The notes below the pieces were generated by a model, which saw nothing but the letters and a program-made list of their open reading frames with translations, did no database searches and was not told the origin of the DNA. Positions 2,383 through 18,209 of a stretch of DNA of 64,000 bases are shown here, one piece after another. A program made the translations under genes and the position numbers. Position 1 is the first letter of the stretch, and each line of letters starts with the position of its first letter. The DNA is from Vulcanimicrobiota bacterium (GTDB lineage: Bacteria > Vulcanimicrobiota > Vulcanimicrobiia > Vulcanimicrobiales > Vulcanimicrobiaceae), in contig PMOS01000005.1 in the NCBI GenBank assembly GCA_003161435.1, positions 1 to 64,000 of the forward strand. The letters run 5' to 3'.

Positions 2383-4062
2383 TCACGAGCGTTCTAGGAC
2401 GTAGGTTCCGGGCGCGTCCGCGAGCGGCGCGTAGCGGTGGCTGCCGGTGGCGGCGGGCGCGTCGACTTGCTCGGGTGAGCGCTCCGCGAGCCACGCCGTC
2501 CAATCAGGCCACCACGAGCCTTCGTGTTTGGGCGCGGCGGCAAGCCACGCGTCGGGGTCGGACGGGTTGGGCGTCCCGGGCGCCGCACCCCACCAGACCG
2601 CCTTCTTCTTCGCGGGCGGGCTGATGATGCCGGCGATGTGGCCGGACGCGCCCAGCCGGAAGGTCGTCGCACCGCCGAGCAGCCGGGTCATCGCATAGAC
2701 CGAGCGCCACGGCGCGATGTGGTCTTCCTGGGTCGCCACGCAATAGGTGTCCAGCTCGATCCGGCGCAGGTCGATCGGCACGCCGTCGACCTCGAGCGCA
2801 TCGGGCTTGACGAGGTTGTTCGCGACGTACATCTGGCGCAGGTAGTACGAGTGCGTCGCGCGCGGAATGCGCGTCGCATCGCTGTTCCAGTAGAGCAGAT
2901 CGAAGGCGGGCGCGTCCTTGCCGAGCAGATAGCGGTTGACCGCAACCCCCCAGATCAGGTCGTTGGCGCGCAGCATGTTGAACGTGTCGCCCATCTCGCG
3001 TCCACCGAGCACGCCCGCTTCGTTCATGCGCTGCTCGATCGACTCCAGCGCTTCCTCGGTGAGAAACGCCATCACCTCGCCGGGATCGCTGAAATCGACC
3101 AGCGCGGCGAAGAACGTCGCGCTGTTGACCAGCCGGCTGCCGGTGCGCGCGAGATAGGCCAGCGCCGTTGCGAGCAGCGTGCCGCCGATGCAATAGCCGA
3201 TCGCGTCGACATCGGCGCTGCCCGCGATCTCTGCGGCGACGGTTGCCGCGGCGACCGGGCCGAGCTTCAGATAGTCGGCCCAGGTCATGTCGGCGAGCGA
3301 TGCGTCCGGGTTGCGCCACGAAACCACGAACGTATTGCGCCCAGCGTCGGTCGCGTACTTCACGAAGCTGTTCGCCGGCTGTAGATCGAGGATGTAGAAC
3401 TTGTTGATCCACGGCGGGACGATGACCAGCGGACGTGCATAGACACGCGCCTGCGTGGGCGCGTACTGGATCAGCTCGATCAGCGCGTTGCGGAAGACCA
3501 CCTTGCCCGGCGTCGTCGCGACGTTCGTCCCGACCTCGAACGCCGACTCGTCGACCAGCGCCGGACGTCCCGCGTTGTCGCGCGCGTCTTCGAGCGCGTT
3601 CTCCATGCCGCGCCGGAAATTTGCGCCGCCGCTGCGCAGCGTCTCTTCGAGCACGTCGGGGTTGAACCACGGCACGTTGGTCGGGCTCATCGCGTCGGTG
3701 AATTGCTTGGCGAAGAACTTCACCCGCCGGCGCGTCGCCTCGTCGATGCCTTCGGCCTGGTCGATCGAGTCGAGCACCGCTTTGGCGGACAGCAGATAGG
3801 CTTGTTTGAGGGCCGAGAAGTATGGGTTCGACGCCCAAGCGGCGTTGGCGAATCGGCGATCGCCCGGCTGCGGTTCGATGATTGCTGCGCTCGGTCGATC
3901 GCTCGCGAGCGCCGTCGCTTCGCCGGCCGCGACGTCGGTGAAGGCCTTGGCGAATTCGGCCTGCGCCTCGAGCAGCGCGCCGGGCGAGGTCATCATCGCG
4001 CGCCAGACGTCCATCGACATCGCGCCGACACCGAGCGGATCGAACGGGTTCTTGGAGCTCAT
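2383..4062 (-). CDS. phaC: class I poly(3-hydroxyalkanoate) synthase PhaC
   Basis: This enzyme polymerises (R)-3-hydroxyacyl-CoA, typically 3-hydroxybutyryl-CoA, into storage polyester on granules. The lipase-like box GYCIGG (about residues 289-294) holds the nucleophilic Cys. The acid and base of the triad appear in ATQEDHIAPW and GASGHIAGIISPP near the C-terminus. An N-terminal PhaC_N-type region precedes the alpha/beta hydrolase core. About 559 residues is slightly short for class I (around 590). I chose ATG 4062 (MSSKNPFDPL); an upstream GTG at 4086 would add eight residues, and neither has a strong SD. No phaA, phaB, phaP or phaR lies adjacent, but a 3-hydroxybutyrate dehydrogenase is at 43145. 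Confidence 0.93.
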   Translation of the reverse strand: MSSKNPFDPLGVGAMSMDVWRAMMTSPGALLEAQAEFAKAFTDVAAGEATALASDRPSAAIIEPQPGDRRFANAAWASNPYFSALKQAYLLSAKAVLDSIDQAEGIDEATRRRVKFFAKQFTDAMSPTNVPWFNPDVLEETLRSGGANFRRGMENALEDARDNAGRPALVDESAFEVGTNVATTPGKVVFRNALIELIQYAPTQARVYARPLVIVPPWINKFYILDLQPANSFVKYATDAGRNTFVVSWRNPDASLADMTWADYLKLGPVAAATVAAEIAGSADVDAIGYCIGGTLLATALAYLARTGSRLVNSATFFAALVDFSDPGEVMAFLTEEALESIEQRMNEAGVLGGREMGDTFNMLRANDLIWGVAVNRYLLGKDAPAFDLLYWNSDATRIPRATHSYYLRQMYVANNLVKPDALEVDGVPIDLRRIELDTYCVATQEDHIAPWRSVYAMTRLLGGATTFRLGASGHIAGIISPPAKKKAVWWGAAPGTPNPSDPDAWLAAAPKHEGSWWPDWTAWLAERSPEQVDAPAATGSHRYAPLADAPGTYVLERS

Positions 4063-4153
4063 CGGGGCGTGGGAGCTTCGCGGCACGGGGCACGGCGCCC
4101 CCGGAGGCCACCGCTTTCACACTTTTTTCATGGCCAGAGCGAAGCTGATAGAC

Positions 4154-5251
4154 ATGACTACGCATGTATTTCGCGCGGCCGCCGGCGCACTCGTTGCGAT
4201 GCTGGCGACGGGTTGCAGCGGCGGAGGTGCCTCCGCCCCTCACGTCAACACCGGAACCGCGTTCCCGGCGATCCTTTCGAGCCTGCACACGCAAACGACG
4301 ATCGGGTCGACCGTCGATCCCGGGCCGGGTACCGGCGCCGGCGACCAAAACCCCTACGGTCTGGCGATCGCGCCCGTGAGCGCGGGCAAGATCACCGCGG
4401 GCGACCTCGTCGTCTGCAACTTCAACGACGCCGCCAACGTGCAAGGCAACGGCACCACCATCGTCGTCCTTCACCCGACGCCCGGCGCGACGCCGGTGCG
4501 CGTCGCTCAGAGTCCGTCGCTGAAGGGTTGCGACGCGCTCACGCTGGACGGCACCGACGCTATCTACACGGCCGACTTCGTTGCCAACGACGCGCCGATC
4601 TTCGCGCCGACCGGAGCGCTCACTTCGGCCAACGGCAACGCCGCCTGGTCCGGGCCGTTCGGGGCGATCTTCAGCCCCACCGCGAGCCCGATCGGCAGCG
4701 CATCGGTCTTCGAGTCCAACGCGACGAGCGGGACCGTGAGCCGCATGGACGTCGTGGGCGGCGCCGTCGCGAGCGTCGAGACGATCGCCACCGGCTTCAC
4801 GCCGAATACCGGCGTGCCGGGCAGTATCGCCGGACCCTCGGGGCTCACCTACGATCCGAGCTCCGACCAGCTGTACGTGGTCGACGGCGGCGCGAATCGC
4901 CTGGTCGCGTTCACCCACGCCTCCTCGATCCCCGCCAATGGGATCGTCGTCGGAACGGCGGGTTTCACCGGACCTTCGGCGGCCAACGCCCGCATCGTTT
5001 CGGCGAACGCCGCGTTCAACGCACCGGTGAGCGCAGCGCTGCTGGTGAACGGCGACGTCATCGTCGGCAACACGGGCAACAACAATATGCTCGAGTTCAC
5101 GCCGGCCGGCGTCCTCGCCGCGACCAAGAACGTCGATTCCGGCAATCCGGGCGCGATCTTCGGAATCGTCGCGACCGGAACGACGCCGGCCAACCAGAAG
5201 ATCTATTTCGACGACGACAACGCGAACGCGGTCGTGCTGATATCGCAGTGA
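4154..5251 (+). CDS. putative lipoprotein with NHL/beta-propeller-like repeats
   Basis: The product of about 365 residues begins with a short lipoprotein signal, hydrophobic residues then the lipobox LATGC (Cys about residue 21) followed by SGGG. The body has repeated blocks such as GPSGLTYDPSSDQLYVVDGG and LVNGDVIVGNTGNNNMLEFTPAG, as in NHL or SMP-30-like propellers. It is probably an envelope-anchored binding or scaffold protein; no catalytic motif was found. ATG 4154 puts the lipobox at the normal distance, and a start at 4130 (MARAKLID) is possible. The frame is open further upstream, but that part is antisense to phaC. Confidence 0.75.
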   Translation: MTTHVFRAAAGALVAMLATGCSGGGASAPHVNTGTAFPAILSSLHTQTTIGSTVDPGPGTGAGDQNPYGLAIAPVSAGKITAGDLVVCNFNDAANVQGNGTTIVVLHPTPGATPVRVAQSPSLKGCDALTLDGTDAIYTADFVANDAPIFAPTGALTSANGNAAWSGPFGAIFSPTASPIGSASVFESNATSGTVSRMDVVGGAVASVETIATGFTPNTGVPGSIAGPSGLTYDPSSDQLYVVDGGANRLVAFTHASSIPANGIVVGTAGFTGPSAANARIVSANAAFNAPVSAALLVNGDVIVGNTGNNNMLEFTPAGVLAATKNVDSGNPGAIFGIVATGTTPANQKIYFDDDNANAVVLISQ

Positions 5252-5306: not shown

Positions 5307-6428
5307 ATGGAGCGGATCAGGCATCTTCCCTCGCCGCCGGCGCCGGCCGGCGGTGACGACGACGACCCGGCGACCTACGAGCGAAACGTCGAGAACTTCA
5401 TCGGAACGGTGCGCGTCCCGGTCGGGCTCGCCGGGCCGCTGAGGATCGACGGCGGAGCCGCCGGCGGCACGTATTTCGTGCCGCTCGCGACGACCGAAGC
5501 GGCACTGGTCGCCTCGTACAGCCGCGGCGCACAGCTGATCACCCGCGCCGGCGGTTGCACGGCGCGCGTGCTCGACGCGCGGATGCGCCGCGCCCCGGTG
5601 CTCGTCTTCGACGACCTGCGCGCGACGATGCTCGCCGCGGCGTGGGTGCGCGCGAACGTCGAGCGCCTGCGCACCGTGGCCGAAGCGACCTCGCACCATG
5701 CCAAGCTGCTGGCGATCGAGACGGCGATCGAGGGCAACCACCTGTACCTCGATTGCGCGTACGAGACGGGTGAAGCGGCCGGTCAGAACATGGTGACGTT
5801 CGCGACCGCGGCCTTGTGCGCCGAGTTTGTCGCCGGCGCACCGGTTCGACCCCGCTCGTACGCCGTCGAGTCGAACGCCTCGGGCGACAAGAAGGCCACG
5901 GCGCAGGCGCTGACGGCGACGCGCGGCCGGCGCGTCTGCGCGGAGGTGACGATCCCCGCCGCGCTGCTCGAGGCGCGGCTCCGCGTGACGCCCGAGATGC
6001 TGGCCGCGTACTGGCGGGTCGGGGCGGTCGCGGCGACGATGACCGGGACGATCGGGATGCAGGGGATGTACGCGAACGCGCTCGCGGCGTTCTACCTCGC
6101 GACCGGTCAGGACGTCGCATGCGTCGCCGAATCGGCGGTGGGGATCACGCGGCTCGAGGTGGCGCACGACGGCGCGCTCTACGCCTGCGTGACGATGCCC
6201 AACATCGTCGTCGCCACCGTCGGCGGCGGCACGGGCTTGCCGACGCAGCGCGCCGCGACGCGCATGCTGGCGCGCGACGGTGTGCCGCCGACCGCCGACG
6301 CGCTGGCCGAGATCGTCGCCGCCGTCACGCTGGCCGGCGAGATCTCGCTGACCGCATCGTTGTGCGCGCACGAGTTCTCGGCCGCGCACCAGCGCTTCGC
6401 GCGCCGCGGCCCAGGGATCCCGGCATGA
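5307..6428 (+). CDS. HMG-CoA reductase, class I-like
   Basis: This enzyme should reduce 3-hydroxy-3-methylglutaryl-CoA to mevalonate with NAD(P)H. Family landmarks appear in order: ENFIGTVRVPVGLAGPL (about 30-45), ATTEAALVAS with the catalytic Glu (about 61-70), EAAGQNMV, SGDKKAT with the catalytic Lys (about 192-198), MPNIVVATVGGGTGLPTQ (about 297-314), and a C-terminal His in AAHQRFAR (about 360). At 373 residues it is the catalytic domain alone, with no membrane anchor. It is the first gene of an eight-gene operon, and its TGA overlaps the next ATG (ATGA, 6425-6428). No SD precedes ATG 5307. No other mevalonate-pathway gene is in the window, so the true substrate is not proven. Confidence 0.88.
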   Translation: MERIRHLPSPPAPAGGDDDDPATYERNVENFIGTVRVPVGLAGPLRIDGGAAGGTYFVPLATTEAALVASYSRGAQLITRAGGCTARVLDARMRRAPVLVFDDLRATMLAAAWVRANVERLRTVAEATSHHAKLLAIETAIEGNHLYLDCAYETGEAAGQNMVTFATAALCAEFVAGAPVRPRSYAVESNASGDKKATAQALTATRGRRVCAEVTIPAALLEARLRVTPEMLAAYWRVGAVAATMTGTIGMQGMYANALAAFYLATGQDVACVAESAVGITRLEVAHDGALYACVTMPNIVVATVGGGTGLPTQRAATRMLARDGVPPTADALAEIVAAVTLAGEISLTASLCAHEFSAAHQRFARRGPGIPA

Positions 6429-7333
6429 ACCGCTGGCTCGTCTACGCGCGCGAGCGCTTCCCGCTCGCGCAGAACGGCGCGCTGATCGCGGCGTTCAGCG
6501 CGTCGGCGATCGCGTTCTCCGCGCTCGTCCGCGGCGCCGGTCACTTCCCCGCGTGGTATCTCGTCGCAGCAGGCTTCGCATCGTCGTTTCTGATGTTCGC
6601 GCTGCTGCGCATCGCCGACGAGTTCAAGGACGCCGGCGACGACGCGCGCTGGCGCCCCTACCGGCCCGTACCGCGTGGCCTGGTGACGCTGCGCCAGCTC
6701 GCGTTCGCCGGCGCGATGTGCATGGGGCTGCAACTCGCGATCGCGCTGGCGGTGAACGTGCGGCTCGTCCCCGAGCTTTTCATCGTGTGGGCGTGGTTCG
6801 GGTTGATGAGCGCGGAGTTCTTCGCGCGCGGCTGGCTGCGCGCGCATCCGGTCGTCTATATCGCGTCGCACATGCTGATCGTCCCGCTGATCGACTGGTA
6901 CGTCTCGTCGTTCGACTGGCTGGTGGCGGGTGTTCCCGCGCCCAGCGCGCTGGGCTGGTTCCTGGCCGTGACGTTCCTCAACGGGCTCGTCGTCGAAGTG
7001 GGGCGCAAGATTCGCGCGCCGCAAGACGAGGAACCCGGTGTCGAGACGTACACCGCGCTGTGGGGCCGCCGCGGCGCGATGCTGGTGTGGGGCGGCGCGA
7101 TCGCCTGCAACGTCGCGCTGGCAACGATCGCTGCCGCGCATATCGGTTTTGCGCGTGTCGACCTCGCGATCTTCGGAGCGCTCGCGCTCGGCGCGGCAGC
7201 GTGCGGCGTCATGTTTCTGCGATCGCGGCGCGCCGGCAGCGGCCGTCGCATCGAGCAGATGACCGGCGCTTGGACGCTCGGATCGTACCTCTTCCTCGGC
7301 ATCGTTCCGCTCGGAGTACACGTGCTGCAATGA
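6425..7333 (+). CDS. UbiA-like membrane prenyltransferase
   Basis: This 302-residue protein is almost entirely hydrophobic, with about 8-9 membrane segments. It has a first acidic motif ADEFKDAGDD (about 62-71) followed by RPVPRG, matching the Asp-rich Mg-prenyl-diphosphate site of the UbiA superfamily (NDxxDxxxD..RP). A weaker second site is RKIRAPQDEEPG (about 198-209). UbiA enzymes join a polyprenyl chain to an acceptor inside the membrane. The acceptor here is unknown, though the flanking HMG-CoA reductase and lipid-alcohol kinase suggest an isoprenoid product. It overlaps both neighbours by ATGA. Confidence 0.75.
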   Translation: MNRWLVYARERFPLAQNGALIAAFSASAIAFSALVRGAGHFPAWYLVAAGFASSFLMFALLRIADEFKDAGDDARWRPYRPVPRGLVTLRQLAFAGAMCMGLQLAIALAVNVRLVPELFIVWAWFGLMSAEFFARGWLRAHPVVYIASHMLIVPLIDWYVSSFDWLVAGVPAPSALGWFLAVTFLNGLVVEVGRKIRAPQDEEPGVETYTALWGRRGAMLVWGGAIACNVALATIAAAHIGFARVDLAIFGALALGAAACGVMFLRSRRAGSGRRIEQMTGAWTLGSYLFLGIVPLGVHVLQ

Positions 7334-9810
7334 TCTTCTCTTCAACCTTGGCCGCATGCGGCATCATCTTCCCCGGTGACGCCGCCGCCGCCGATCGTGG
7401 CCGGGTCGGCGGGAAAGCCGCCGGACTCGCGCGACTGCGCGACGCGGGCTGCGACGTACCGGCCTGGTTCGTCGTGACGCCGGCGTGCTGCGACGACGAC
7501 GGCGTGCTCGACGCGCTGGCGCGGATCGTCGCGGACGGCGACTGCGGCGACGCGCAAGGCGCGACCTTTGCGGTGCGCTCTTCGGCGCTCGTCGAAGACG
7601 GCGCGAACGCCTCGTACGCGGGGCAGTTCGAGAGCCGGCTGTTCGTCCCGCGCGACGGCGTGCTCGAGGCGATCGCTCGCGTTCGCGCTTCGGCCGGCAG
7701 CGATGCCGCACGAGCGTACGCAGGCAGCTCCGACATCGCCGCAATGGCGGTCGTCGTGCAACGCATGGTCGACGGCGAAGCCGGCGGGGTCGCTTTCGGC
7801 GTCGATCCGGTCGACGGGAGCGACGTCGTCGTCGTGACGGCGGCATATGGTCTGACGTGCGGCGTCGTCGACGGCGACCTCGTCGTCGATACGTGGCGGG
7901 TCGAGCGCGACGGCACGATCGGCACGCGCACGATCGCCGAGAAGGACCGCATGCACGTGCGCGCACCCGGCGGAACGACGGCCGTCGCCGTCGATGCGCC
8001 ACTGCGCGCGCGCCCGGTGCTCGGCGACGATGCGGTGATCGCGATCGCGTCGTTGGTCCGCCGAATTGCGAATGCGGCCGGCACGCCGCAAGACGTCGAG
8101 TTCACCGTGCGCGACGGACGGCTCTGGGCGTTGCAAGCGCGGCCCGTCACCGCGATCGCACCGGCGAGGATGCCGGTCGCCATCTGGGACGACAGCAACA
8201 TCGCCGAGAGCTACGGCGGTGTGGTCGGAGCGCTCACCTACTCGTTCGCCCGGCACGCGTACGCCGGCGCGTACCGCTCCTTCTTCCGCCTGGTCGCGGT
8301 GCCGCGAACGACGATCGACGCGCACGCCGAGACGTTCGAGGGGCTCGTGGGGCGGATCGAGGGCCGGATGATGTACGACCTGGTGCACTGGTATCAGATG
8401 CTCGCGCTGCTCCCGGGCTACCGGCTCAACCGCCGTTTGATGGAAGAGATGATGGGCGTGCGCGAGGCGATGCCGGTCGAGGTCGCCGACGCGATCGCCC
8501 GTGACTGCCGGCGCGGCCGGGCGCGCGACGCCGCGATGCTCGCGAGAACCACGTTCGCGTTGACCGTCGCCGCCGCGCGGCTCCCACACGAGATCGCGCG
8601 CTTCCACACGCACGTCGCGGCGACGCTCGCGGGCGCGCCCGAGCTCGGACGCGCTTCGCTCGTCGAGCTGGCGCGCGAGTACCGACGGCTCGAGAGCGCA
8701 TTGCTCGACCGCTGGAACGTGCCGATCGCCAACGACTTCTTCGTGATGCTTTCGTTCGGGTTGCTCAAGCGCGCCGCCGAAACGTGGTGCGGCGACGCGT
8801 CCTTGGCACCGGCACTGCTGACCGGCAGCGGCGGGATGCTCAGCGCCGAGCCGGCGCGCGCCGTGCAGCTTCTCGCCGCGCTCGAGTCGGACGGCGACCG
8901 GCTCGGCTTCGAGCTGGAGATCGGCGCATATCTCGCTCGCTTCGGCGATCGCTGCGAGAGCGAGCTGAAGCTCGAAAGCCCGACGCTGCACGACGACCCG
9001 CGTCCGCTGTTCGAAGCGATCGCGCGGCTGCGCGGCACGAACACGGCGACGCCGGAGCACGTTGCGCGCGACCTGCGACGCGACGCCGAGCGGCGCGCGC
9101 ACGATGCACTGCGCAACCACCCGCTGCGCGCGCTCGCGTTCGCGCGACTCGTTGCGTGGGCGCGCGCGCGGATCGTCGCGCGCGAGAACCTGCGCTTCGA
9201 GCGCACGCGCGTGTTCGGCCACGTGCGGCGCATCGTGCTCGCGATGGGCGCCGTGCTGGTGCGGCGCGGTGCGCTCGACGATGCGCGCGACGTCTTTCAC
9301 CTGACCGTCGACGAATTGCTGGGGTACGTCGAAGGGACGACTGCCAGCCGGGACCTGCGCGGGCTCGCGGCGGTGCGCCGCACCGAAAGCGCGCGTTATG
9401 CGGCGGCGCCGGCGCCGCCCAACCGCTTCGCGACCCGCGACCTGCCGGTCGCGCCGCCGGCGTCCGTTTCGCCGGCCGGCGACGACGGCGCGCGCAGCGG
9501 CACACCGTGCTGCCCCGGCGTCGTGCGCGGCCGTGCCCGCCTCGTGCGCGATCCGCGCGAGACGCTGCTCTCCGGGGAGATCCTCGTCGCCGAGCGCACC
9601 GATCCGAGTTGGGTCGTCCTCTTTCCGGCCGCCGCGGCGATCCTGGTCGAGCGCGGGAGCCAGCTCTCGCACGCGGCGATCGTGTCGCGCGAGATGGGGA
9701 TCCCGTCGGTGGTCGCGATCCGCGGGCTGATGTCGTGGCTGCACGACGGCGACCTGGTCGAGCTCGACGGAGCGACCGGCGTCGTCCGCCGGCTGGACGA
9801 AGCAGTATGA
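7330..9810 (+). CDS. PEP-synthase/rifampin-phosphotransferase-like dikinase
   Basis: At 826 residues this has the three-part plan of rifampin phosphotransferase and PEP synthase. An N-terminal ATP-grasp (about 1-290) shows GGKAAGLARL, FAVRSSALVEDG, VVVQRMVDGEAGGVAFGVDP and LWALQARPVT. A helical middle domain (about 300-710) shows NIAESYGGVVGALTYSF. A C-terminal swivelling phosphohistidine domain (about 720-826) shows RGSQLSHAAIVSREMGIPSV with the transfer His near 780. Such enzymes cleave ATP to AMP and Pi and pass the beta-phosphate to a small acceptor. The length fits RPH (about 865) as well as PEP synthase (about 790). Inside a prenyl operon, a lipid or metabolite hydroxyl is a likely acceptor (inference). 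Confidence 0.8.
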   Translation: MIFSSTLAACGIIFPGDAAAADRGRVGGKAAGLARLRDAGCDVPAWFVVTPACCDDDGVLDALARIVADGDCGDAQGATFAVRSSALVEDGANASYAGQFESRLFVPRDGVLEAIARVRASAGSDAARAYAGSSDIAAMAVVVQRMVDGEAGGVAFGVDPVDGSDVVVVTAAYGLTCGVVDGDLVVDTWRVERDGTIGTRTIAEKDRMHVRAPGGTTAVAVDAPLRARPVLGDDAVIAIASLVRRIANAAGTPQDVEFTVRDGRLWALQARPVTAIAPARMPVAIWDDSNIAESYGGVVGALTYSFARHAYAGAYRSFFRLVAVPRTTIDAHAETFEGLVGRIEGRMMYDLVHWYQMLALLPGYRLNRRLMEEMMGVREAMPVEVADAIARDCRRGRARDAAMLARTTFALTVAAARLPHEIARFHTHVAATLAGAPELGRASLVELAREYRRLESALLDRWNVPIANDFFVMLSFGLLKRAAETWCGDASLAPALLTGSGGMLSAEPARAVQLLAALESDGDRLGFELEIGAYLARFGDRCESELKLESPTLHDDPRPLFEAIARLRGTNTATPEHVARDLRRDAERRAHDALRNHPLRALAFARLVAWARARIVARENLRFERTRVFGHVRRIVLAMGAVLVRRGALDDARDVFHLTVDELLGYVEGTTASRDLRGLAAVRRTESARYAAAPAPPNRFATRDLPVAPPASVSPAGDDGARSGTPCCPGVVRGRARLVRDPRETLLSGEILVAERTDPSWVVLFPAAAAILVERGSQLSHAAIVSREMGIPSVVAIRGLMSWLHDGDLVELDGATGVVRRLDEAV

Positions 9811-10871
9811 ACGCGCTCCGCTACGCGCAGTGCTGGGAGGACGCGGACGTCCTCGTCTCCGCCCTGGCAGTCCGGCCGGGCGGTACGTACGTCGCGATCG
9901 CATCGGCCGGCGACAACGCTCTGGCGATGCTCGCCGCCGGTCCGGCGCGAGTGATCGCGATCGAACGGGAGCCCGCCCAGCTCGCTGCGCTCGGACTGCG
10001 CGTCGCGGCGTACCGCGCGCTCGCCCACGGCGAGCTGCTCGCGCTGATCGGCTCGCGCCCGCACGACGATCGGCTCGGCCTCTATGCGCGCTGCCGGCCG
10101 GCGCTCGACGACGACGCGCGTGCGTACTGGGACGCACGCCCCGGCGCGATCCGCGCCGGCATCGGCGGCGCCGGCCGCTTCGAAGGGTACCTCGCGCTGT
10201 TCCGCACCGCCGTGCTGCCGCTGATCCATTCGCCGAGCACGGTGCGCGAGCTGCTTGCGTGCGACGACGCCGAGCGTGCGCGCTTCTATGACGAACGGTG
10301 GGACAGCCTGCGCTGGCGCTTGGCGTTCCGCACCTTCTTCGCGCGGCCGGCGATGAGCGCGCTCGGCCGCGACCCACGCTTCTTCGCGCAGGCCGACGGC
10401 CCGGTATCGCAGCGGTTGTTGGCGCGAATCGCGCGCTCGCTGCGCGACGACGACGCCGGCGCGAACCCGTACCTGCGCTGGATCCTGACCGGCGCGCACG
10501 GCGCCGCGCTTCCGCTCGCGCTGCGCGCGGAGTCGTTCGACGCGATCCGCGACAACCTGGACCGGCTCGAAGTCCGCCGCTGCTCGCTCGAAGAGTTCGC
10601 CGACGGTTACGACGGCCCGGCGATCGACGGCTGGAATCTGTCCGACGTCTTCGAGTACCTCGACGAAGCGTCGTACGAAGCGTTGCTGGCGCGCATCGCG
10701 GCGGCATCGTCGCCGCGCGCGCGGTTGGCGTACTGGAACATGCTCGTGCCGCGCCGCCGCCCCGAGTCGCTGGCCTCGTTCTTGGCCGCGCGCGAGGACA
10801 TCGCCGCGCCGCTGCGCGCGCGCGACCGCGTCCCGTTCTACGGCGACTTCGTCGTGGAGGAAGCACGATGA
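9807..10871 (+). CDS. BtaA/DUF3419-like SAM 3-amino-3-carboxypropyltransferase
   Basis: The 354-residue protein has the DUF3419/BtaA signature near its start (LRYAQCWEDADVLVSAL, family form YxQxWEDP), a SAM-binding-like strand-loop (YVAIASAGDNALAMLAAGP, about 30-50), and LSDVFEYL near the C-terminus. BtaA transfers the 3-amino-3-carboxypropyl group of SAM to diacylglycerol, the first step to the betaine lipid DGTS. There is no BtaB-like N-methyltransferase domain fused or adjacent, so a non-methylated homoserine ether or another acceptor is possible. It overlaps both neighbours by ATGA in the eight-gene operon. Confidence 0.75.
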   Translation: MNALRYAQCWEDADVLVSALAVRPGGTYVAIASAGDNALAMLAAGPARVIAIEREPAQLAALGLRVAAYRALAHGELLALIGSRPHDDRLGLYARCRPALDDDARAYWDARPGAIRAGIGGAGRFEGYLALFRTAVLPLIHSPSTVRELLACDDAERARFYDERWDSLRWRLAFRTFFARPAMSALGRDPRFFAQADGPVSQRLLARIARSLRDDDAGANPYLRWILTGAHGAALPLALRAESFDAIRDNLDRLEVRRCSLEEFADGYDGPAIDGWNLSDVFEYLDEASYEALLARIAAASSPRARLAYWNMLVPRRRPESLASFLAAREDIAAPLRARDRVPFYGDFVVEEAR

Positions 10872-11521
10872 TCGTCGCCTTCGCCGCCGCCGCGGCCATC
10901 CTCGCGCTGCTCGTCGGCGGTATCGGCATGCTGGCGCTGCGCTTCCGCTGGGAACCCGAAGCGGCGCGCAAGGGCTCGCACGTCGCCGTCGGCCTCGCCT
11001 GTCTGCCGTTGCCGCTGCTGTTCGCCGACGCGACGCCGGTGATTGCGCTCGCTGCCGTCGCGTGCGCCGGGTTGGTCGCCTTGCGCGCGGTGCCGGCGTT
11101 GCGCGCGCGGTTCGGCTGCGCGCTGCACGGCATCGCGCGCGCATCGCTGGGCGAGTTCGCGTTCGTCGCCGGCGTTGCGCTGGCGTTCGTCCTCGCGCAC
11201 GGCGATTTCGCGGCGTACGCGGCGGCGATCCTCACGCTGACCCTGGGCGACACGGCGGCCGCCCTGATCGGACGGCGCTTCGGCCGCCACCCGTATGCGA
11301 TCGGCCGCGCGCGCAAATCGGTCGAAGGCTCGTGCGCGTTCTTCGCCGTCGCCGCGCTCGTTTGCGCACTCGTGCCCGGCGCCGCGAGCATCGCCGCCGT
11401 TGCGGCGTTCGCGCTTGCGACGACGCTGGCCGAGGCGTTCGCCGGCGACGGGCTCGACAACGCCGCAATTCCGCTCGCCGGCTTGCTGGCGTTGCGCCTC
11501 TTCACGGGAGTTTCTCCATGA
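10868..11521 (+). CDS. phytol/dolichol kinase-like CTP-dependent lipid kinase
   Basis: This 217-residue membrane protein has about six or seven hydrophobic helices. It carries the signatures of the SEC59/VTE5/DGK1 CTP-dependent lipid-alcohol kinase family: RKGSHVAVGL (about 35-44), GDTAAALIGRRFGRHPYAIG (about 126-145) and RKSVEGSCAFF (about 148-158). Members phosphorylate polyprenols, phytol or diacylglycerol. The related CDP-archaeol synthase and CdsA enzymes are a weaker alternative. In this operon it would plausibly activate or salvage a prenyl alcohol. It overlaps both neighbours by ATGA. Confidence 0.75.
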   Translation: MIVAFAAAAAILALLVGGIGMLALRFRWEPEAARKGSHVAVGLACLPLPLLFADATPVIALAAVACAGLVALRAVPALRARFGCALHGIARASLGEFAFVAGVALAFVLAHGDFAAYAAAILTLTLGDTAAALIGRRFGRHPYAIGRARKSVEGSCAFFAVAALVCALVPGAASIAAVAAFALATTLAEAFAGDGLDNAAIPLAGLLALRLFTGVSP

Positions 11522-12417
11522 CCACTCTGCACATCGAAAGCTGTGGTCCGGACGCGACGATGGAGCATCGCCGCAACGGCGCGGTGCTCGCCCGCGCTTC
11601 GCTCTGGCACCGCGTGACGCCGTTGCACGGCGGACGCCGCGTCGGCTTCGTCGGCGAGGTCGAGTCGCACGACGACGACGCGTTGACCGCGCTGCTCCAG
11701 GGCGCGGCTGCACAACTGCGCGCGGCAGGGTGCGAACTCGCCGTCGGCCCGGTCGACGGCGACACCTGGCACCGTTATCGGCTCGTCACGTGGAGTGACG
11801 GCACGCCGCCGTTCGCACTCGAGCCGTTCTCACCGCTCGAGGCGAGCCTACCGTGGACGAAGGCCGGCTTTGAAGCGCTGGAGACGTATGCGTCGTATCG
11901 CGATGACGCGCTGGCCGAACGCGATCCGCGCGTCCCCGTGCTCGCCGCGCGGCTGCGCGACGCGGGCGTCACGGTGCGGGCGCTCGACCTCGATCGCTTC
12001 GACGACGAGCTCGCGCAGATTCACGCGCTCGCGCTGCGCGGCTTCCGCGACGCACCGCTGTTCGCCCCGATCGGCTTCGAGGCGTTCGCCGCATTGTACC
12101 GTCCGCTCGCGCCGCTGCTCGACCCGCGCCTGTGTCCGGTCGCGGAGCTGAACGGGCGCATCGCCGCGGCGCTGTTCGCGCTGCGCGATCCACGCGCGCC
12201 CGAGGCCGTCGTCCTCAAAACGGTCGTCCGCGACGCCGACCGGCGGTTGGCCGGCGTCGGCTTCGTGCTCACCGACGCGTCGCGCACCGCGGCGCACGCG
12301 CTGGGAGCGACGCGCGCGATCTCCGCGCTGCAGCATGACGGCAACGTCGCGCGTTCGCTCGCCGGTCGGGCGATCGTCTTCCGCCGTTACGCCGTCTTCG
12401 CCAAGGAGCTGTCATGA
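11518..12417 (+). CDS. GNAT-like putative acyltransferase
   Basis: The 299-residue soluble protein has a two-lobed layout. The N-terminal half includes RRVGFVGEVESHDDDALTAL and an Ala-rich helix with AVGPVDGDTWHRYRLVTW. The C-terminal half includes AELNGRIAAALFALRDP and ends RAIVFRRYAVFAKEL. This resembles large GNAT-fold proteins encoded next to acyl-CoA ligases, but the acetyl-CoA-binding Q/RxxGxG/A motif is not clear. It is translationally coupled (ATGA) to the kinase upstream and the AMP-binding enzyme downstream, so an acyl transfer role in the same pathway is a reasonable inference. Confidence 0.5.
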   Translation: MTTLHIESCGPDATMEHRRNGAVLARASLWHRVTPLHGGRRVGFVGEVESHDDDALTALLQGAAAQLRAAGCELAVGPVDGDTWHRYRLVTWSDGTPPFALEPFSPLEASLPWTKAGFEALETYASYRDDALAERDPRVPVLAARLRDAGVTVRALDLDRFDDELAQIHALALRGFRDAPLFAPIGFEAFAALYRPLAPLLDPRLCPVAELNGRIAAALFALRDPRAPEAVVLKTVVRDADRRLAGVGFVLTDASRTAAHALGATRAISALQHDGNVARSLAGRAIVFRRYAVFAKELS

Positions 12418-13985
12418 ACGTCACCGAGATCTTGCGCGCGCGAGCCGCCGAACACCCCGACCGTCCGGCGCTGCTCGACGCGGCCGCCGGCTCGGCGCTG
12501 ACCTACGCTCAGCTCGACGCCGCGAGTGGACGCGTCGCTGCCGCCTTGCGAGCGCGCGGATTGCGCCCCGGCGAGACCGTGCTGATCCTCCATCCGGTCG
12601 CGACGGAGCTGTACGTCGCGTTGATCGGCGCGCTGCGCGCCGGGCTGGTTCCGGCGATTCCACCGGCCGGTGCCGGCCGCGACGCGCTCGCGCGCTGCGC
12701 TCGGATGCAGCCTCCGCGTGCCGTCCTGGTCGGCGGGATCGGCTGGGCCGCGCTCGCCGCCGTTCCGGCGCTACGGCGTGCCGTTCGCTTGTCCACCGTA
12801 TCGACGCCGTTCGCGTACGGCGTCTTACCTGCGAACGCCGTTGCGACCGCTGCGATCGAGCCGCGCGACGACGACGATCCCGCGATGCTGACCTTCACCT
12901 CGGGCAGTACCGGCGAACCCAAAGCGCTGGTGCGCTCGCACGGCGTCGCGCGCGCGCAGGTCGACGCGCTGGCGCGCGCGCTCGACCTGGACGGTGCGAC
13001 ATCGCTGTGCACGATGCCGATCGTATTGCTCGCCGAGCTGGCTGCCGGCGCGACGTGCTTTTTGCCGGGACTCGATCTGCGGCATCCCGCTCGCGTCGAC
13101 GGTGCGCTGCTCGCCGAGCGACTGCGTGCGCACGACGTCGAACGGATCGTCGCCTCGCCGGCGCTGCTGGCGAACCTCGCGTCGGCGCTGAGGGGTCGCG
13201 GCGACAGGCTGCCCGCATTGCGCACCGTCGCCTCCGGCGGCGCACCGGTGATGCCGCCGCTGGCCGACGCACTCCGCGCCGTCGCGCCGAACGCGCGCAT
13301 CCTCGCCGTCTACGGCAGCACCGAGGCCGAGCCGATCGCACGGCTCGACGCGGCCGACGTCACGCCGTCCGATCACGCCGCGATGCGCGCGGGTGCCGGA
13401 CTGCTCGCGGGTACGCCGTGCGGTCCCGGTGCGGTGGCGATCGTCGTGCGCGCTGCCGGTTCGGTCATCGGACCGTTCGACGACGACGACGACGACGTCG
13501 AACGGCACGCGCTCGCAGCCGGCGCCGTCGGCGAGATCGTCGTCTGCGGACCGCAGGTCGTGCCGCACTATCTGGACCGCGCCGCCGACGCGACGACGAA
13601 GATCCGCGCCGGCACGCGCAGCTGGCACCGCACGGGCGATTTGGGCTACCGCGACGGCGACGGTCGCCTCTGGCTGGTGGGCCGCGCGACGGCGACGATC
13701 GACGACGGACGCGGCATCGTCGAGCCGTTGCGCGTCGAGTGCGCCCTCGCGTATCTGCCCGGCATCGCACGCAGCGCGATCGCCGGCTGCGACGGCGCGC
13801 GCATTTTGGTGGTCGAGCCGGTCGCCGGGCAGGCGGTCGACGAGCGCGCGATTCGCGCCGCGCTGGCGTTCGTCGACCTGGACCGAATCGTCATCGCGCC
13901 CGTTCCGGTCGATCCGCGGCACGAGGCGAAGGTCGACTACGCGGGACTGCAGCGGCTCGCCGGCCGGTACGCGCGTGCATCCTGA
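12414..13985 (+). CDS. AMP-forming acyl-CoA ligase-like enzyme
   Basis: The 523-residue protein belongs to the ANL superfamily. It has the P-loop-like LTFTSGSTGEPKAL (about 159-172), an aromatic/STE motif YGSTEAEPIARLD (about 301-313) and a hinge-like HRTGDLGYRDGDGRLWLVGR (about 405-424). The C-terminal lobe is reduced, and the usual catalytic Lys motif appears only as RHEAKVDYAGL near the end, so adenylation may need checking. Relatives activate fatty or aromatic acids as acyl-AMP and acyl-CoA. Its place in the operon suggests it supplies the acyl unit used by the GNAT-like neighbour. Confidence 0.75.
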   Translation: MNVTEILRARAAEHPDRPALLDAAAGSALTYAQLDAASGRVAAALRARGLRPGETVLILHPVATELYVALIGALRAGLVPAIPPAGAGRDALARCARMQPPRAVLVGGIGWAALAAVPALRRAVRLSTVSTPFAYGVLPANAVATAAIEPRDDDDPAMLTFTSGSTGEPKALVRSHGVARAQVDALARALDLDGATSLCTMPIVLLAELAAGATCFLPGLDLRHPARVDGALLAERLRAHDVERIVASPALLANLASALRGRGDRLPALRTVASGGAPVMPPLADALRAVAPNARILAVYGSTEAEPIARLDAADVTPSDHAAMRAGAGLLAGTPCGPGAVAIVVRAAGSVIGPFDDDDDDVERHALAAGAVGEIVVCGPQVVPHYLDRAADATTKIRAGTRSWHRTGDLGYRDGDGRLWLVGRATATIDDGRGIVEPLRVECALAYLPGIARSAIAGCDGARILVVEPVAGQAVDERAIRAALAFVDLDRIVIAPVPVDPRHEAKVDYAGLQRLAGRYARAS

Positions 13986-14838
13986 CTACACGCACGCGCT
14001 GCGGCGCTACGAAGCGCTCGCGCGGCGCGACGATGCGACGATCCATCCGCAGGGCGGTTCGATTCTGCTCGAACGCGGACGCCCGGCGGCGCGCGCGGTG
14101 GTGCTGCTCCACGGCTTGACGGCCAGCCCGATGCAATGCGGCGCGCTCGCGCGGTGCCTGCACGCCGCCGGTGACGCAGTGCTCGTCCCGCGCCTGCCCG
14201 GGCACGGCGCGCGCGACCGGCTGACGCCCCAGCTGCGCGACGTACGCGCGCACGAGCTGATCGAAGCCGCGCACGAAGCGCTCACGATCGCGCGCGGGCT
14301 CGGCACGGCGGTGACCGTCGCGGGCTTCTCGCTCGGCGGCTTGCTCGCCGCGTGGCTCGCGCAGCACGAGTCGTTCGAACACGCCGTCGCGATCGCGCCG
14401 TTTCTCGGCGTGACGTGGCTCCATCGCCGCGCGACGCCGGCGCTCGTCGCCACGCTGCGCGCGCTGCCGAACGCGTTCTTGTGGTGGGATCCGGTGCTGC
14501 GCGAGCGGCTGATGCCCGAGTACGGCTACCCGCGCTACCCGACCCACGCGATCGCCGAGGCGCTCGGCATCGCGACCTCGCTGGCGGGAATCGCGCGGTC
14601 GACGGCGCCCCTGACACGGCGCATCACGCTCGTGACCAACTCGGGCGAAACCGCCGTCAACAACGCCGCGGCGCGCGATCTCGCGGCGCTGTGGCACGCC
14701 CACGGCGCGGGCGACGTGCGCCTCGATCGCCTTCACGGATTTCCACCCTCGCACGACGTGATCGACCCGCTGCGCCGCGCCGGCCTCGCGGCCCGCGCGC
14801 ATCGCGTCCTCTTCCCGATCCTCCACGGGGCACGCTAG
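13975..14838 (+). CDS. alpha/beta hydrolase, last gene of the prenyl operon
   Basis: GTG 13975 overlaps the end of the ligase gene by 11 bases and gives 287 residues; no better start is visible. The fold is recognisable from VVLLHGLTASPMQCGAL (oxyanion HG), the nucleophile elbow GFSLGG (about 117-122) and a late His in DRLHGFPPSHD (about 250-260). It resembles monoacylglycerol-lipase or carboxylesterase-type hydrolases. A lipid-ester trimming or editing role is inferred from context. The operon ends here, and the 131 bases to the convergent GNAT gene hold nothing I recognise. Confidence 0.75.
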   Translation: MHPDYTHALRRYEALARRDDATIHPQGGSILLERGRPAARAVVLLHGLTASPMQCGALARCLHAAGDAVLVPRLPGHGARDRLTPQLRDVRAHELIEAAHEALTIARGLGTAVTVAGFSLGGLLAAWLAQHESFEHAVAIAPFLGVTWLHRRATPALVATLRALPNAFLWWDPVLRERLMPEYGYPRYPTHAIAEALGIATSLAGIARSTAPLTRRITLVTNSGETAVNNAAARDLAALWHAHGAGDVRLDRLHGFPPSHDVIDPLRRAGLAARAHRVLFPILHGAR

Positions 14839-15785: not shown

Positions 15786-16567
15786 GACGCGGTGCGAAGT
15801 GACTCGACGAACGATGCGACGCGGTCGAGCACCAGCTCCGGTGCGTCGCGATGCGGGTTGTGTCCGGCGCCCGGCACGAGCAGCGTCTGCGCGTTCGGCG
15901 TGCGCGCGACGATCGCGTCCAGTTGCGCGATCGTGCCGTACTGGTCGGCGTCGCCTTGGATCAACAGCACCGGACACCGCACGCGCGAGGCGTACGGTTC
16001 GATGTTCCAGTCGCGAAAGCGAGGGTCGAGCCAGATGTCGTTCCAGCCGGCGAAGGTCGCGTCGGCGTCGGCGTGATGGCGGGCGAGCTTGGACGGCAGG
16101 TCGGTCGTTGCGAAGGCGATCTTGGCCTCGGCGATGCTGCGCACGGAGATATCCTCGACGAAGACGTGCGGCGCTTCGAGCACTAGCGCCCGCACCGCGG
16201 TTGGGTGCACGCCGGCGTAGATCAGCGCGATTGAGGCGCCGTCGCTGTGCCCGAACAGCACGGGACGCTCGATCATCATTTCCGCGAGCAGCCCGGGGAG
16301 CACGACCTCGGCTTCGTGGTGCATGTAGTCCGGCTCGCGCCGTTCGCGCAGCACTTCGGACCGCCCGTAGCCGTAACGCGAATACGCGACCATGGTGCGG
16401 CCCGTGCGCTCGGCGAGACGTTGCGGCAGATCGCGCCACAATGACACCGAGCCGAGCCCCTCGTGCAGCAACACGATCGCCGGTTGCGCCGGATCGCCGT
16501 CGTAGCGCACCGTTTCCAGCCGCTTTCCGTCGACGATGAGCGCGCGCGCAACGGGTTCGCGCGTCAT
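15782..16567 (-). CDS. alpha/beta hydrolase of the benzoate cluster
   Basis: The 261-residue enzyme has AIVLLHEGLGSVSLWRDLPQ (oxyanion region), YSRYGYGRS, the nucleophile elbow GHSDGAS (about 99-105), an acid in LLIQGDADQYG and the base in GAGHNPHRD. Its ATG overlaps the benzoate-CoA ligase stop (ATGA). Comparable hydrolases, sometimes called lactone hydrolases, occur in other box clusters; they may act on the ring-cleavage or lactone products or as a CoA-ester safety valve. The exact substrate is not shown by the sequence. Confidence 0.8.
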   Translation of the reverse strand: MTREPVARALIVDGKRLETVRYDGDPAQPAIVLLHEGLGSVSLWRDLPQRLAERTGRTMVAYSRYGYGRSEVLRERREPDYMHHEAEVVLPGLLAEMMIERPVLFGHSDGASIALIYAGVHPTAVRALVLEAPHVFVEDISVRSIAEAKIAFATTDLPSKLARHHADADATFAGWNDIWLDPRFRDWNIEPYASRVRCPVLLIQGDADQYGTIAQLDAIVARTPNAQTLLVPGAGHNPHRDAPELVLDRVASFVESLRTAS

Positions 16568-18105
16568 GCGCGGTCGCGGGCGCGCAACACGTGTCGCTGG
16601 ATCTTTCCCGTCGCGGTCTTGGGCAGCTCGGGGACGAACTCGATCCAACGCGGATACTTGTACGGCGCGAGCCGGCTCTTCACGTGCACTTTGAGCATGT
16701 CCGCCAACGCATCGCTCGGCTCGGCTCCCGGCTTGAGGACGACGAAGGCCTTCGGTTTGATCAGGTCTTGCTCGTCGGCCAAGCCGATCACCGCGGCTTC
16801 GAGCACCTGCTCGTGTGCGACCAGCGCCGACTCGACCTCGCTGGGCGAAACCCAATTCCCGCTGACCTTGAGCATGTCGTCGACGCGGCCGCAGTAGACG
16901 AAGCAGCCGTCCTCGTCCTGCCGGTACTTGTCGCCGGTGCGCGTCCACTCGCCGGCGAACGTGCTGCGCGTCTTCTCGCGATTGTTCCAGTAGTAGGCGG
17001 CCGATGTCGGGCCCGAAACTTCGAGCTCGCCGAGCTCGCCCGGTACGACGTCGCGACCGTCCTCGCCGACGATGCGCGCGCGATAGCCCGGCACCGGCAC
17101 GCCGGTCGTGCCGTACTTCACCGCGCCGGGCCGGTTGGAGACGAAGATGTGCAGCATCTCGGTCGAGCCGATCCCGTCGACGATCTCGACACCGAAGCGC
17201 GCCGTCCAGTTCTTGCCGATCTCTTCGGGAAGCGGCTCGCCGGCGGACGTGCACAGCCGCAGCGCGACCTCGTCGCGCGACGGCAGATCCGGCTGCACGA
17301 GCAGCGAACCGAACAAGGTCGGCACGCCGCAGAAGATCGTCGGCCGCCGATCGCGCAAGATCGCGCCGACGGCCGCCGGCGTCGCGCGCGCGGCGTGCAG
17401 CACCGCGGTCGCGCCGACCGACATCGGAAACGTCAGCGCGTTGCCCAAGCCGTACGCGAAGAACAGCTTCGCGGCCGAGAAAACGACGTCGCTCTCGTCG
17501 ATGCCGAGCACGCCTTGCGCGAACAGCTCGGCGGTTCGAACCAAGCTCGTCTGGAGGTGGACGGTCCCTTTCGGCCGGCCGGTCGAACCCGACGAGTACA
17601 GCCAGAAGCAGACGTCGTCAGGTCCCGTCGCCGCGGCGTCGACGAGCGGCGTCGCGCGCGACATGAGCTCGGCAAGCGTGGTCTGCGTTCCGGCGTAAGT
17701 GCCGCGCGGATCCGAAACGATGATGCGACCGTTCCAGGTCGCCAACCGTGCAGCTTCTTCGTAGTGCGCCGCGAGCTCGGCCGAGACGATCGTGATTTTG
17801 GCCCGGCTGTCGGCGAGAATGTACGCGTAATCGGCCGGCTGAAAAAGGGTGTTGACCGGAATCGGCACGATGCCGGCTTTGATCGCGCCCAGAAATACCG
17901 CCGGAAAGTCGATCGTGTCGAGCAATCCGAGCACGATCCGCTGCTCGGGGTGGATCCCCAACTCCAACAATGCGCCGCCGGCACGGTCGACGCGCTCGGC
18001 CAACTCGCCATAGGTGTACTCGCCGCCGTCGTCGATGAAGGCGGTCTTCTGCGCGCGCGCCGGCAGGTTGCGCTCGATGAGATCCGCCGCGGCGTTATAG
18101 GGCAT
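16564..18105 (-). CDS. benzoate-CoA ligase family protein
   Basis: This ANL-family ligase should activate benzoate with ATP and CoA to benzoyl-CoA, the entry step of the box pathway. It has FWLYSSGSTGRPKGTVH (AMP-binding loop, about 170-185), FFAYGLGNALTFP as in benzoate-CoA ligases, DGIGSTEMLHIFVSN, TGDKYRQDEDGCFVYCGR and the catalytic Lys in LPKTATGKIQRH. Length is about 513 residues from ATG 18105 (MPYNAAADLIE); a GTG at 18180 would add 25 poorly conserved residues. It is divergent from the small LuxR-type gene at 18210, leaving about 100 bases for promoters. The aromatic acid specificity is inferred from family and context. Confidence 0.9.
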   Translation of the reverse strand: MPYNAAADLIERNLPARAQKTAFIDDGGEYTYGELAERVDRAGGALLELGIHPEQRIVLGLLDTIDFPAVFLGAIKAGIVPIPVNTLFQPADYAYILADSRAKITIVSAELAAHYEEAARLATWNGRIIVSDPRGTYAGTQTTLAELMSRATPLVDAAATGPDDVCFWLYSSGSTGRPKGTVHLQTSLVRTAELFAQGVLGIDESDVVFSAAKLFFAYGLGNALTFPMSVGATAVLHAARATPAAVGAILRDRRPTIFCGVPTLFGSLLVQPDLPSRDEVALRLCTSAGEPLPEEIGKNWTARFGVEIVDGIGSTEMLHIFVSNRPGAVKYGTTGVPVPGYRARIVGEDGRDVVPGELGELEVSGPTSAAYYWNNREKTRSTFAGEWTRTGDKYRQDEDGCFVYCGRVDDMLKVSGNWVSPSEVESALVAHEQVLEAAVIGLADEQDLIKPKAFVVLKPGAEPSDALADMLKVHVKSRLAPYKYPRWIEFVPELPKTATGKIQRHVLRARDRA

Positions 18106-18209
18106 CGGCCGCCAGTTCCGGATCTCGGGCCCTTTTCCATCGCCCGGACCGGCAATCCGAGGGCTTTCCCGGATACGCACGGAGATGATGTCGCGCTAGC
18201 ATCGCGGAG

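Follow-up and report, generated by a model that had tools for sequence, protein, structure and literature searches.

A set of seven genes, combining a relative of 3-hydroxy-3-methylglutaryl-CoA (HMG-CoA) reductase with two membrane enzymes, a homologue of the betaine-lipid enzyme BtaA and three further enzymes, is a real and widely conserved cassette in bacteria. It was examined in a 64,000-nucleotide stretch of a Vulcanimicrobiota bacterium (GenBank assembly GCA_003161435.1, contig PMOS01000005.1, positions 1 to 64,000; hereafter the window), where it forms part of an eight-gene operon at 5307–14838 on the plus strand. With a probability of about 0.4, the cassette is read here as a mobile unit for the synthesis of an N-acylated, membrane-associated lipid with an aminocarboxypropyl (homoserine-type) group.

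A conserved gene cassette

The eight genes of the operon are chained by six ATGA overlaps (at 6425, 7330, 9807, 10868, 11518 and 12414) and one 11-base overlap (13975–13985), an arrangement that the original prediction described and the coordinates confirm. In order, they encode an HMG-CoA-reductase-family protein (HMGR) of the class I type with an altered substrate pocket (5307–6428, 373 aa; PF00368, 335.9 bits); a UbiA-family membrane transferase (6425–7333, 302 aa; PF01040); an ATP-dependent phosphotransferase or ligase resembling RPH and phosphoenolpyruvate (PEP) synthase, here called RPH (7330–9810, 826 aa; PPDK_N, 175.4 bits; PEP-utilizers, 81.6 bits); a BtaA-like DUF3419 protein of its own subfamily, presumed to be an S-adenosylmethionine aminocarboxypropyl transferase (9807–10871, 354 aa; PF11899, 200.6 bits); a phytol-kinase/dolichol-kinase-like protein, presumed to be a CTP-using membrane kinase (PhK; 10868–11521, 217 aa), placed by motifs and by the weak fold match of a relative; a tandem-GNAT N-acyltransferase, assigned from its predicted fold (11518–12417, 299 aa); an ANL adenylating acyl ligase (12414–13985, 523 aa; PF00501, 166.7 bits), for which the nearest NCBIfam models are PRK09274 and then OleC; and an alpha/beta hydrolase (13975–14838; Abhydrolase_1, 35 bits), which is in the operon and outside the conserved cassette.

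Related loci were fetched with a DUF3419 alignment, as the best 80 of at least 515 confirmed GTDB relatives. Cross-phylum counts refer to 78 of these, from 17 named phyla with two rows unplaced; the two Eremiobacterota loci were left out, and many of the contigs are cut short. All seven core genes (HMGR-UbiA-RPH-DUF3419-PhK-GNAT-ANL) lie on one strand in 37 of the 78 loci, representing nine phyla, and these complete loci show two gene orders only: that of the window in 27, and one with GNAT-ANL ahead of HMGR-UbiA-RPH-DUF3419-PhK in 10. Because the same order recurs in other phyla, the arrangement is confirmed as real and far beyond chance. The check proposed with the original prediction, conservation of the set as a unit in other phyla, thus came out in its favour, and the fetched loci did not show the outcome named as refuting it, namely homologues lying mostly apart and each tied to a standard pathway. 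Individually, the genes are present in 50 (HMGR), 63 (UbiA), 71 (RPH), 78 (DUF3419), 65 (PhK), 58 (GNAT) and 55 (ANL) of the 78 loci, and none of the core genes counted there is on the opposite strand. Overlaps between neighbours are frequent (RPH-DUF3419 in 42/71, DUF3419-PhK in 40/65, GNAT-ANL in 36/53). No further gene family is shared by more than 9 of 84 clustered loci. The hydrolase, originally counted as part of the unit, is rejected as a core gene: a match above 45 bits adjoins just one of the 80 fetched loci (L022), and otherwise it was seen beside the clusters of genomes G006, G007 and G008, all four being of the window's genus.

Among 149 Eremiobacterota genomes, the DUF3419 alignment finds matches in 13 (E ≤0.001), and in 10 of these they are strong (E 1e-100 or better). 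The seven-gene set is present in Methylomonas sp. SURF-1, Natronospirillum operosum G-116 and Desulfobulbus rhabdoformis DSM 8777, and Roseinatronobacter sp. S2 carries a complete cluster on plasmid NZ_CP121116.1. There the HMGR gene spans the start of the record (49% identity, with matches from either end), and the remaining genes are annotated as UbiA family, PEP/pyruvate-binding, DUF3419, hypothetical, hypothetical and AMP-binding. In the cyanobacteria G165 and G166 the HMGR-UbiA pair (with RPH in G166) is on a different stretch from the DUF3419 gene. A tree of 79 DUF3419 proteins partly clusters by phylum and requires 32 changes of phylum label (minimum possible, 16; shuffle mean, 51.7), one starred clade mixing Rhodothermota, Bacteroidota, Latescibacterota, Gemmatimonadota and Actinomycetota; the tree is weakly resolved, with 33 of 76 inner branches open, and label changes beyond one per phylum do not prove transfer. 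This mixing of phyla, together with the plasmid copy, suggests that the cassette has spread horizontally. Among 31 loci with seven full-length genes, the distances of 17 of the 21 gene pairs correlate more strongly than the largest of 200 permutations, the pairs not exceeding it being HMGR-UbiA, UbiA-PhK, UbiA-ANL and PhK-GNAT. No description of the cluster was found in the open-access literature searched, in line with the original view that the gene set is undescribed.

In the window itself, an Rfam search gave no match, a promoter scan gave 0 promoters, and a terminator scan gave one terminator-like site against a shuffle mean of 4.2. Upstream of the operon and divergently oriented is a PHA-synthase-like gene (2383–4086; PhaC_N, 227.6 bits), and downstream, on the minus strand, is a separate ANL ligase (16564–18180; AMP-binding, 249.6 bits) that appears by eye to be of the benzoate-CoA-ligase type.

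The reductase and its hosts

Membership of the first protein in the HMGR family is well founded, as the original prediction had it; the further claim that it forms mevalonate is doubtful. At 286.2 bits, the window protein does not reach the 441.8-bit equivalog cut-off of NCBIfam. It retains the catalytic residues (E29, K195, D269, H361), and the corresponding Glu, Lys, Asp and His are each present in 46 of 46 aligned cluster HMGRs. The substrate pocket is another matter. Two residues of the human enzyme, Ser684 and Lys735, are taken here to bind the HMG carboxylate. The position of Ser684 is Glu in all 46 cluster proteins (E188 in the window), and that of Lys735 is Met in 33, Val in 5, Phe, Ala and Ile in 2 each, and Thr and Leu in 1 each, being basic in none; the column after it is also devoid of basic residues. 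In addition, the Met657 position is Gln and the Pro693 position is Ala in 46/46. In five alignments to solved class I enzymes the Ser684 place is always Ser, while Lys falls on the Lys735 column in three and, through gap placement, one column later in the other two (8ecg, 7uli). The HMGRs of the Chloroflexota G151 and G168 were dropped as pocket controls, as they belong to another HMGR class.

A second, non-cluster subfamily of HMGR-like proteins, about 40% identical, occurs in the Eremiobacterota (L012, 3317–4429, in G006; L013, 5166–6359, in G017). Both members keep Ser at the Ser684 position. Since both share Gln at the Met657 position, and L012 likewise has no basic residue at that of Lys735, only the Glu at the Ser684 position is cluster-specific in this two-protein comparison. 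Pathway neighbours of the L012 and L013 genes are not evident by eye.

Host metabolism was surveyed in 59 genomes picked among carriers of the DUF3419 gene, deliberately including some without HMGR; most are drafts, so single gene absences are weak evidence. HMGR was found in 44, and removal of the Chloroflexota G151 and G168, whose genes are non-cluster, leaves 42 cluster-HMGR genomes. None of the 42 has an HMG-CoA synthase over the cut-off of the archaeal-type model TIGR00748. Among all 59, the cut-off of 353 bits is exceeded in G168 only, with 246 bits at a contig end in G151 and 159 bits in the HMGR-less G157; at E 0.001 the model matches 57 genomes, mostly weakly, and these weak matches are probably ketoacyl synthases. 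The second model, PF01154, matches two of the 59 genomes at E 0.001, one of them over cut-off (G140, partial, 26.5 bits), and did not detect the HMG-CoA synthase of two Chloroflexota that TIGR00748 detected. In 14 control genomes, all five with HMGR were among the seven matching PF01154. As PF01154 alone is misleading, the statement on HMG-CoA synthase is based on TIGR00748. Three Chloroflexota have a mevalonate diphosphate decarboxylase over cut-off, a fourth (G151) reaching 111.7 bits, under the cut-off, and five further matches score ≤24 bits; the four Chloroflexota with a convincing gene show no cluster-type HMGR. Dxr, of the methylerythritol phosphate route, is present in 52 of the 59 genomes overall and in 39 of the 42 with a cluster HMGR. 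An HMG-CoA lyase passes its cut-off in 24 of the 59, and 27 of the 42 cluster-HMGR genomes have neither synthase (TIGR00748) nor lyase over cut-off.

Mevalonate supply was accordingly lowered as an explanation, given the missing synthase and the presence of Dxr in most hosts, and the cluster HMGR is, from its residues and its hosts, probably something other than a mevalonate enzyme. Two order-level relatives carry class II-like HMGR genes that by eye have mevalonate-pathway-like neighbours (L017, 7865–12190; L018, 8883–11299), so the mevalonate route is seemingly separate from the cluster in the window's order.

The partner enzymes and the proposed product

The DUF3419 protein is 46–58% identical to 79 of its 80 best relatives and 84% identical to that of the same-genus locus L022. 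Its conserved motifs are WED and NLS, with W, E and D of the one and N, L and S of the other each present in 82/82. Matches on rhizobial plasmids are at 27–30%, apart from 35.4% across one short S. meliloti piece. One published account describes BtaA as transferring the aminocarboxypropyl group in betaine-lipid synthesis (PMC10491745).

The UbiA protein is barely over the family cut-off (35.1 vs 34.2 bits). The first Asp-rich motif (DExKDxxxD) is kept in 33 of 33 aligned rows, and the second is altered: GRK stands in place of DxxxD, the first Asp of the usual motif being missing, and an invariant Glu comes later. The PhK of the window has no Pfam or NCBIfam match, and the relatives scanned likewise gave no match to a kinase-family profile; its label comes partly from what we take to be motifs of the phytol-kinase family. 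Arg34, His38, Asp128, Lys150 and Gly154 are found in 68/68, and Lys35 and Glu153 in 67/68. At 217 aa the window protein is shorter than the relatives found, which have a median length of about 440 aa and a second membrane domain. The predicted fold of one relative (L023) is confident (pLDDT 92.0), its best PDB match being the CDP-diacylglycerol synthetase 4q2g (probability 0.96, E 0.053); all of its 185 matches fall short of E 0.001. DUF92/VTE6 was tried as the identity of the second domain and rejected, with one weak match (15.7 bits) in five proteins scanned and a fold search that was unsupportive. L027 encodes PhK and UbiA as a single fused protein, whose UbiA part reaches 28 bits (cut-off 34.2).

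RPH has an N-terminal PPDK_N domain (residues 74–276), a middle domain and a mobile His domain (PEP-utilizers, 749–817), and the catalytic His781 is kept in 67 of 67 aligned rows. It scores about equally against the RedH, PigC and rifampin phosphotransferase models, in each case under the equivalog cut-off, and higher against the uncharacterised PRK06241 models. Distant relatives, at about 32%, occur on plasmids of Streptomyces durmitorensis (L148) and S. clavuligerus (L149), where they adjoin an AfsA-related gene and one of the isoprenylcysteine-methyltransferase type. The GNAT protein of the window has no useful profile match, and of three relatives scanned one (L050, 30 bits) is over the Acetyltransf_1 cut-off; the predicted fold is a tandem GNAT (AlphaFold pLDDT 93.8) with 7q3a and the mycothiol synthase MshD as best PDB matches. 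For the ANL ligase, the NF006754 (PRK09274) score is 309.8 bits against a cut-off of 478 and the OleC score 202 bits against one of 900, neither cut-off being reached; the key residues of the adenylation motifs are kept in 49–55 of 55 aligned rows.

Some loci depart from the standard set or extend it. In L098, a thioester-reductase-like SDR occupies the usual place of HMGR-UbiA (PF07993 NAD_binding_4, 170.4 bits; TIGR01746, 114.6 bits, cut-off 213) and abuts RPH, the two genes overlapping by 8 bases or lying 7 bases apart depending on the start chosen. No replacement reductase was evident by eye upstream of UbiA in the open reading frame lists of the other HMGR-less clusters. Of the 84 clustered loci, 6 share an exporter family and 9 an ABC ATPase family. 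MMPL is over cut-off beside L025, L027 and L074 (the L098 piece, at 18.6 bits, is under it), ABC_tran occurs beside L088, and an FtsX/MacB-type permease beside L023. The MMPL exporter of L027 (3690–5957) also matches the sterol-sensing domain (32.8 bits). Genes of the phosphatidylserine-decarboxylase type follow in L098 (157.9 bits) and L027 (160.8 bits). Between RPH and DUF3419, the verrucomicrobial locus L068 (4610–9890) has genes for a PigE-like aminotransferase extended by a long additional domain, another PPDK-like enzyme and a SnoaL-like protein, and similar neighbours of DUF3419 were seen in L072, L093 and L094. In L076 a formyltransferase-like gene (3732–4478; Formyl_trans_N, 71.8 bits) is located between HMGR and a divergent ANL-UbiA-RPH set.

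The recurring gene set, the two membrane enzymes, the pairing of adenylation with N-acyl transfer, and the lipid-type exporters of a minority together point to an amphiphilic, N-acylated product with an aminocarboxypropyl group derived from S-adenosylmethionine. A lipid with a homoserine-type and an acyl group therefore remains the best reading, as first proposed, and the first reading as a whole is partly supported. Both the product and the steps are deduced from the enzyme families, the order of steps being guesswork. The HMGR-family enzyme would act as a repurposed NAD(P)H reductase, converting an acyl thioester other than HMG-CoA to a primary alcohol; this role is favoured because of the thioester-reductase-like stand-in of L098, the pocket Glu, and the absence of HMG-CoA synthase matches over the TIGR00748 cut-off. 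PhK, using CTP, and RPH, as an ATP-to-AMP phosphotransferase, might turn alcohols into activated phosphates, and the UbiA enzyme could then move the activated chain onto an acceptor. The BtaA homologue would supply the homoserine-type head, to be N-acylated later, for which a fatty acid or a similar acid may be activated by the ANL ligase and loaded onto the amine by the tandem GNAT. In some relatives an MMPL or ABC exporter accompanies the cassette, so export of the product is possible. A bolder version of this proposal, held more tentatively, is that the cassettes of some 18 phyla make a new class of exported aminolipid, with the HMGR homologue as an acyl-thioester-to-alcohol reductase feeding a chain-transfer step of kinase and UbiA, and with the BtaA-derived head N-acylated.

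Several observations weigh against the lipid proposal. Fifteen of the 42 cluster-HMGR genomes, including all 10 Eremiobacterota searched, have an HMG-CoA lyase over cut-off, and the window genome has a lyase-like gene just above the cut-off (254.7 vs 246 bits); leucine-derived HMG-CoA could thus exist in the lyase-bearing hosts. An Arg or Lys one residue before the Lys735 position in 37 of 46 proteins might substitute for Lys735, at which the non-cluster L012 has Ile and L013 has Arg. The DUF3419 gene occurs without any HMGR match in 15 of 59 genomes, so those genomes must replace the reductase step or do without it, and the L098 reductase is a single case. Finally, the family placement of PhK is weak, and the distances of UbiA and PhK track those of other genes poorly.

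Four other explanations have to be set against this proposal. Mevalonate activation and attachment are carried out in fungal siderophore synthesis by SidI and SidF, and by analogy HMGR might make mevalonate from HMG-CoA of leucine breakdown, which ANL would activate and GNAT attach to the aminocarboxypropyl amine. The intact catalytic residues (46/46), the lyase in 15/42 genomes, with all 10 Eremiobacterota searched among them, and the loss of Lys735 and Met657 in the non-cluster L012 as well, are all in keeping with this; the invariant Glu at the Ser684 position, the 27/42 genomes with neither synthase (TIGR00748) nor lyase over cut-off, and the retention of GNAT-ANL in HMGR-less clusters speak against it, and it seems rather improbable. 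We give similarly low credence to the idea that RPH is a ligase like PigC or RedH and the product a small signal or pigment instead of a membrane lipid. Its near-equal scores for the RedH, PigC and rifampin phosphotransferase models would fit, as would the verrucomicrobial variant with its PigE-like aminotransferase and second PPDK-like protein, and the AfsA-type genes adjoining the distant Streptomyces relatives; however, all three scores fall under the equivalog cut-offs and below those for PRK06241, and the two membrane enzymes and the lipid-type exporters at some loci favour a lipid.

A variant of betaine-lipid synthesis, in which the DUF3419 enzyme modifies diacylglycerol and the other genes merely adjust the product, would account for the 200.6-bit family match, but is quite unlikely: identity to most rhizobial DUF3419 matches is 27–30%, no methyltransferase is among the 25 largest recurring families (in Sinorhizobium a frame of that type comes, by eye, directly after the DUF3419 gene), and HMGR, UbiA and RPH are left unexplained. 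The remaining candidate is an ordinary mevalonate-pathway operon for isoprenoid supply, suggested by the adjacency of HMGR and UbiA. It is already largely refuted, and hardly credible, with HMG-CoA synthase over cut-off in 0/42, Dxr in 39/42, and mevalonate diphosphate decarboxylase convincing only in the four Chloroflexota without cluster-type HMGR.

Should the lipid proposal hold, a conserved and apparently mobile unit in cyanobacteria, proteobacteria, Verrucomicrobiota, Planctomycetota and other groups would represent an additional pathway, and probably an additional class of lipids, and would place HMG-CoA reductase, a much-studied enzyme, in a non-mevalonate role. The named strains and the plasmid with all seven genes open the question to direct testing.

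Comparison with known systems

Each enzyme of the cassette comes from a known superfamily, and to our knowledge their combination, and probably the product too, fits no described pathway. The cluster HMGR shares the fold family and the four catalytic residues of class I HMG-CoA reductase, but differs in having Glu for Ser684 and Met, Val or another residue for Lys735, and in 42 hosts without HMG-CoA synthase over cut-off. The DUF3419 protein belongs to the same Pfam family as the betaine-lipid synthase BtaA and would be expected to perform the same S-adenosylmethionine aminocarboxypropyl chemistry; it differs in its low identity (27–30%) to most rhizobial matches and in its conserved motifs. 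The 25 largest families shared among 84 loci include no BtaB-like methyltransferase, a genome-wide search not having been made, whereas in Sinorhizobium the DUF3419 gene is by eye followed by a methyltransferase-like frame.

Tocopherol phytol salvage, with its phytol kinase VTE5 and its UbiA transferase VTE2, offers a parallel in the placing of a presumed CTP-type lipid-alcohol kinase beside a UbiA-family protein, the two being fused in L027. The cassette differs from this system in the changed second Asp motif of its UbiA and in the absence of quinone-ring genes among the 25 largest families. RPH has the ATP, middle and mobile His domains of rifampin phosphotransferase, PigC and RedH in the same order, but is under all their equivalog cut-offs. 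Lastly, PRK09274 and the beta-lactone synthetase OleC are the nearest adenylating-enzyme models to the cassette ANL, which falls under both cut-offs (309.8 vs 478 and 202 vs 900 bits), and the remaining Ole families were not noticed among the 25 largest recurring families.

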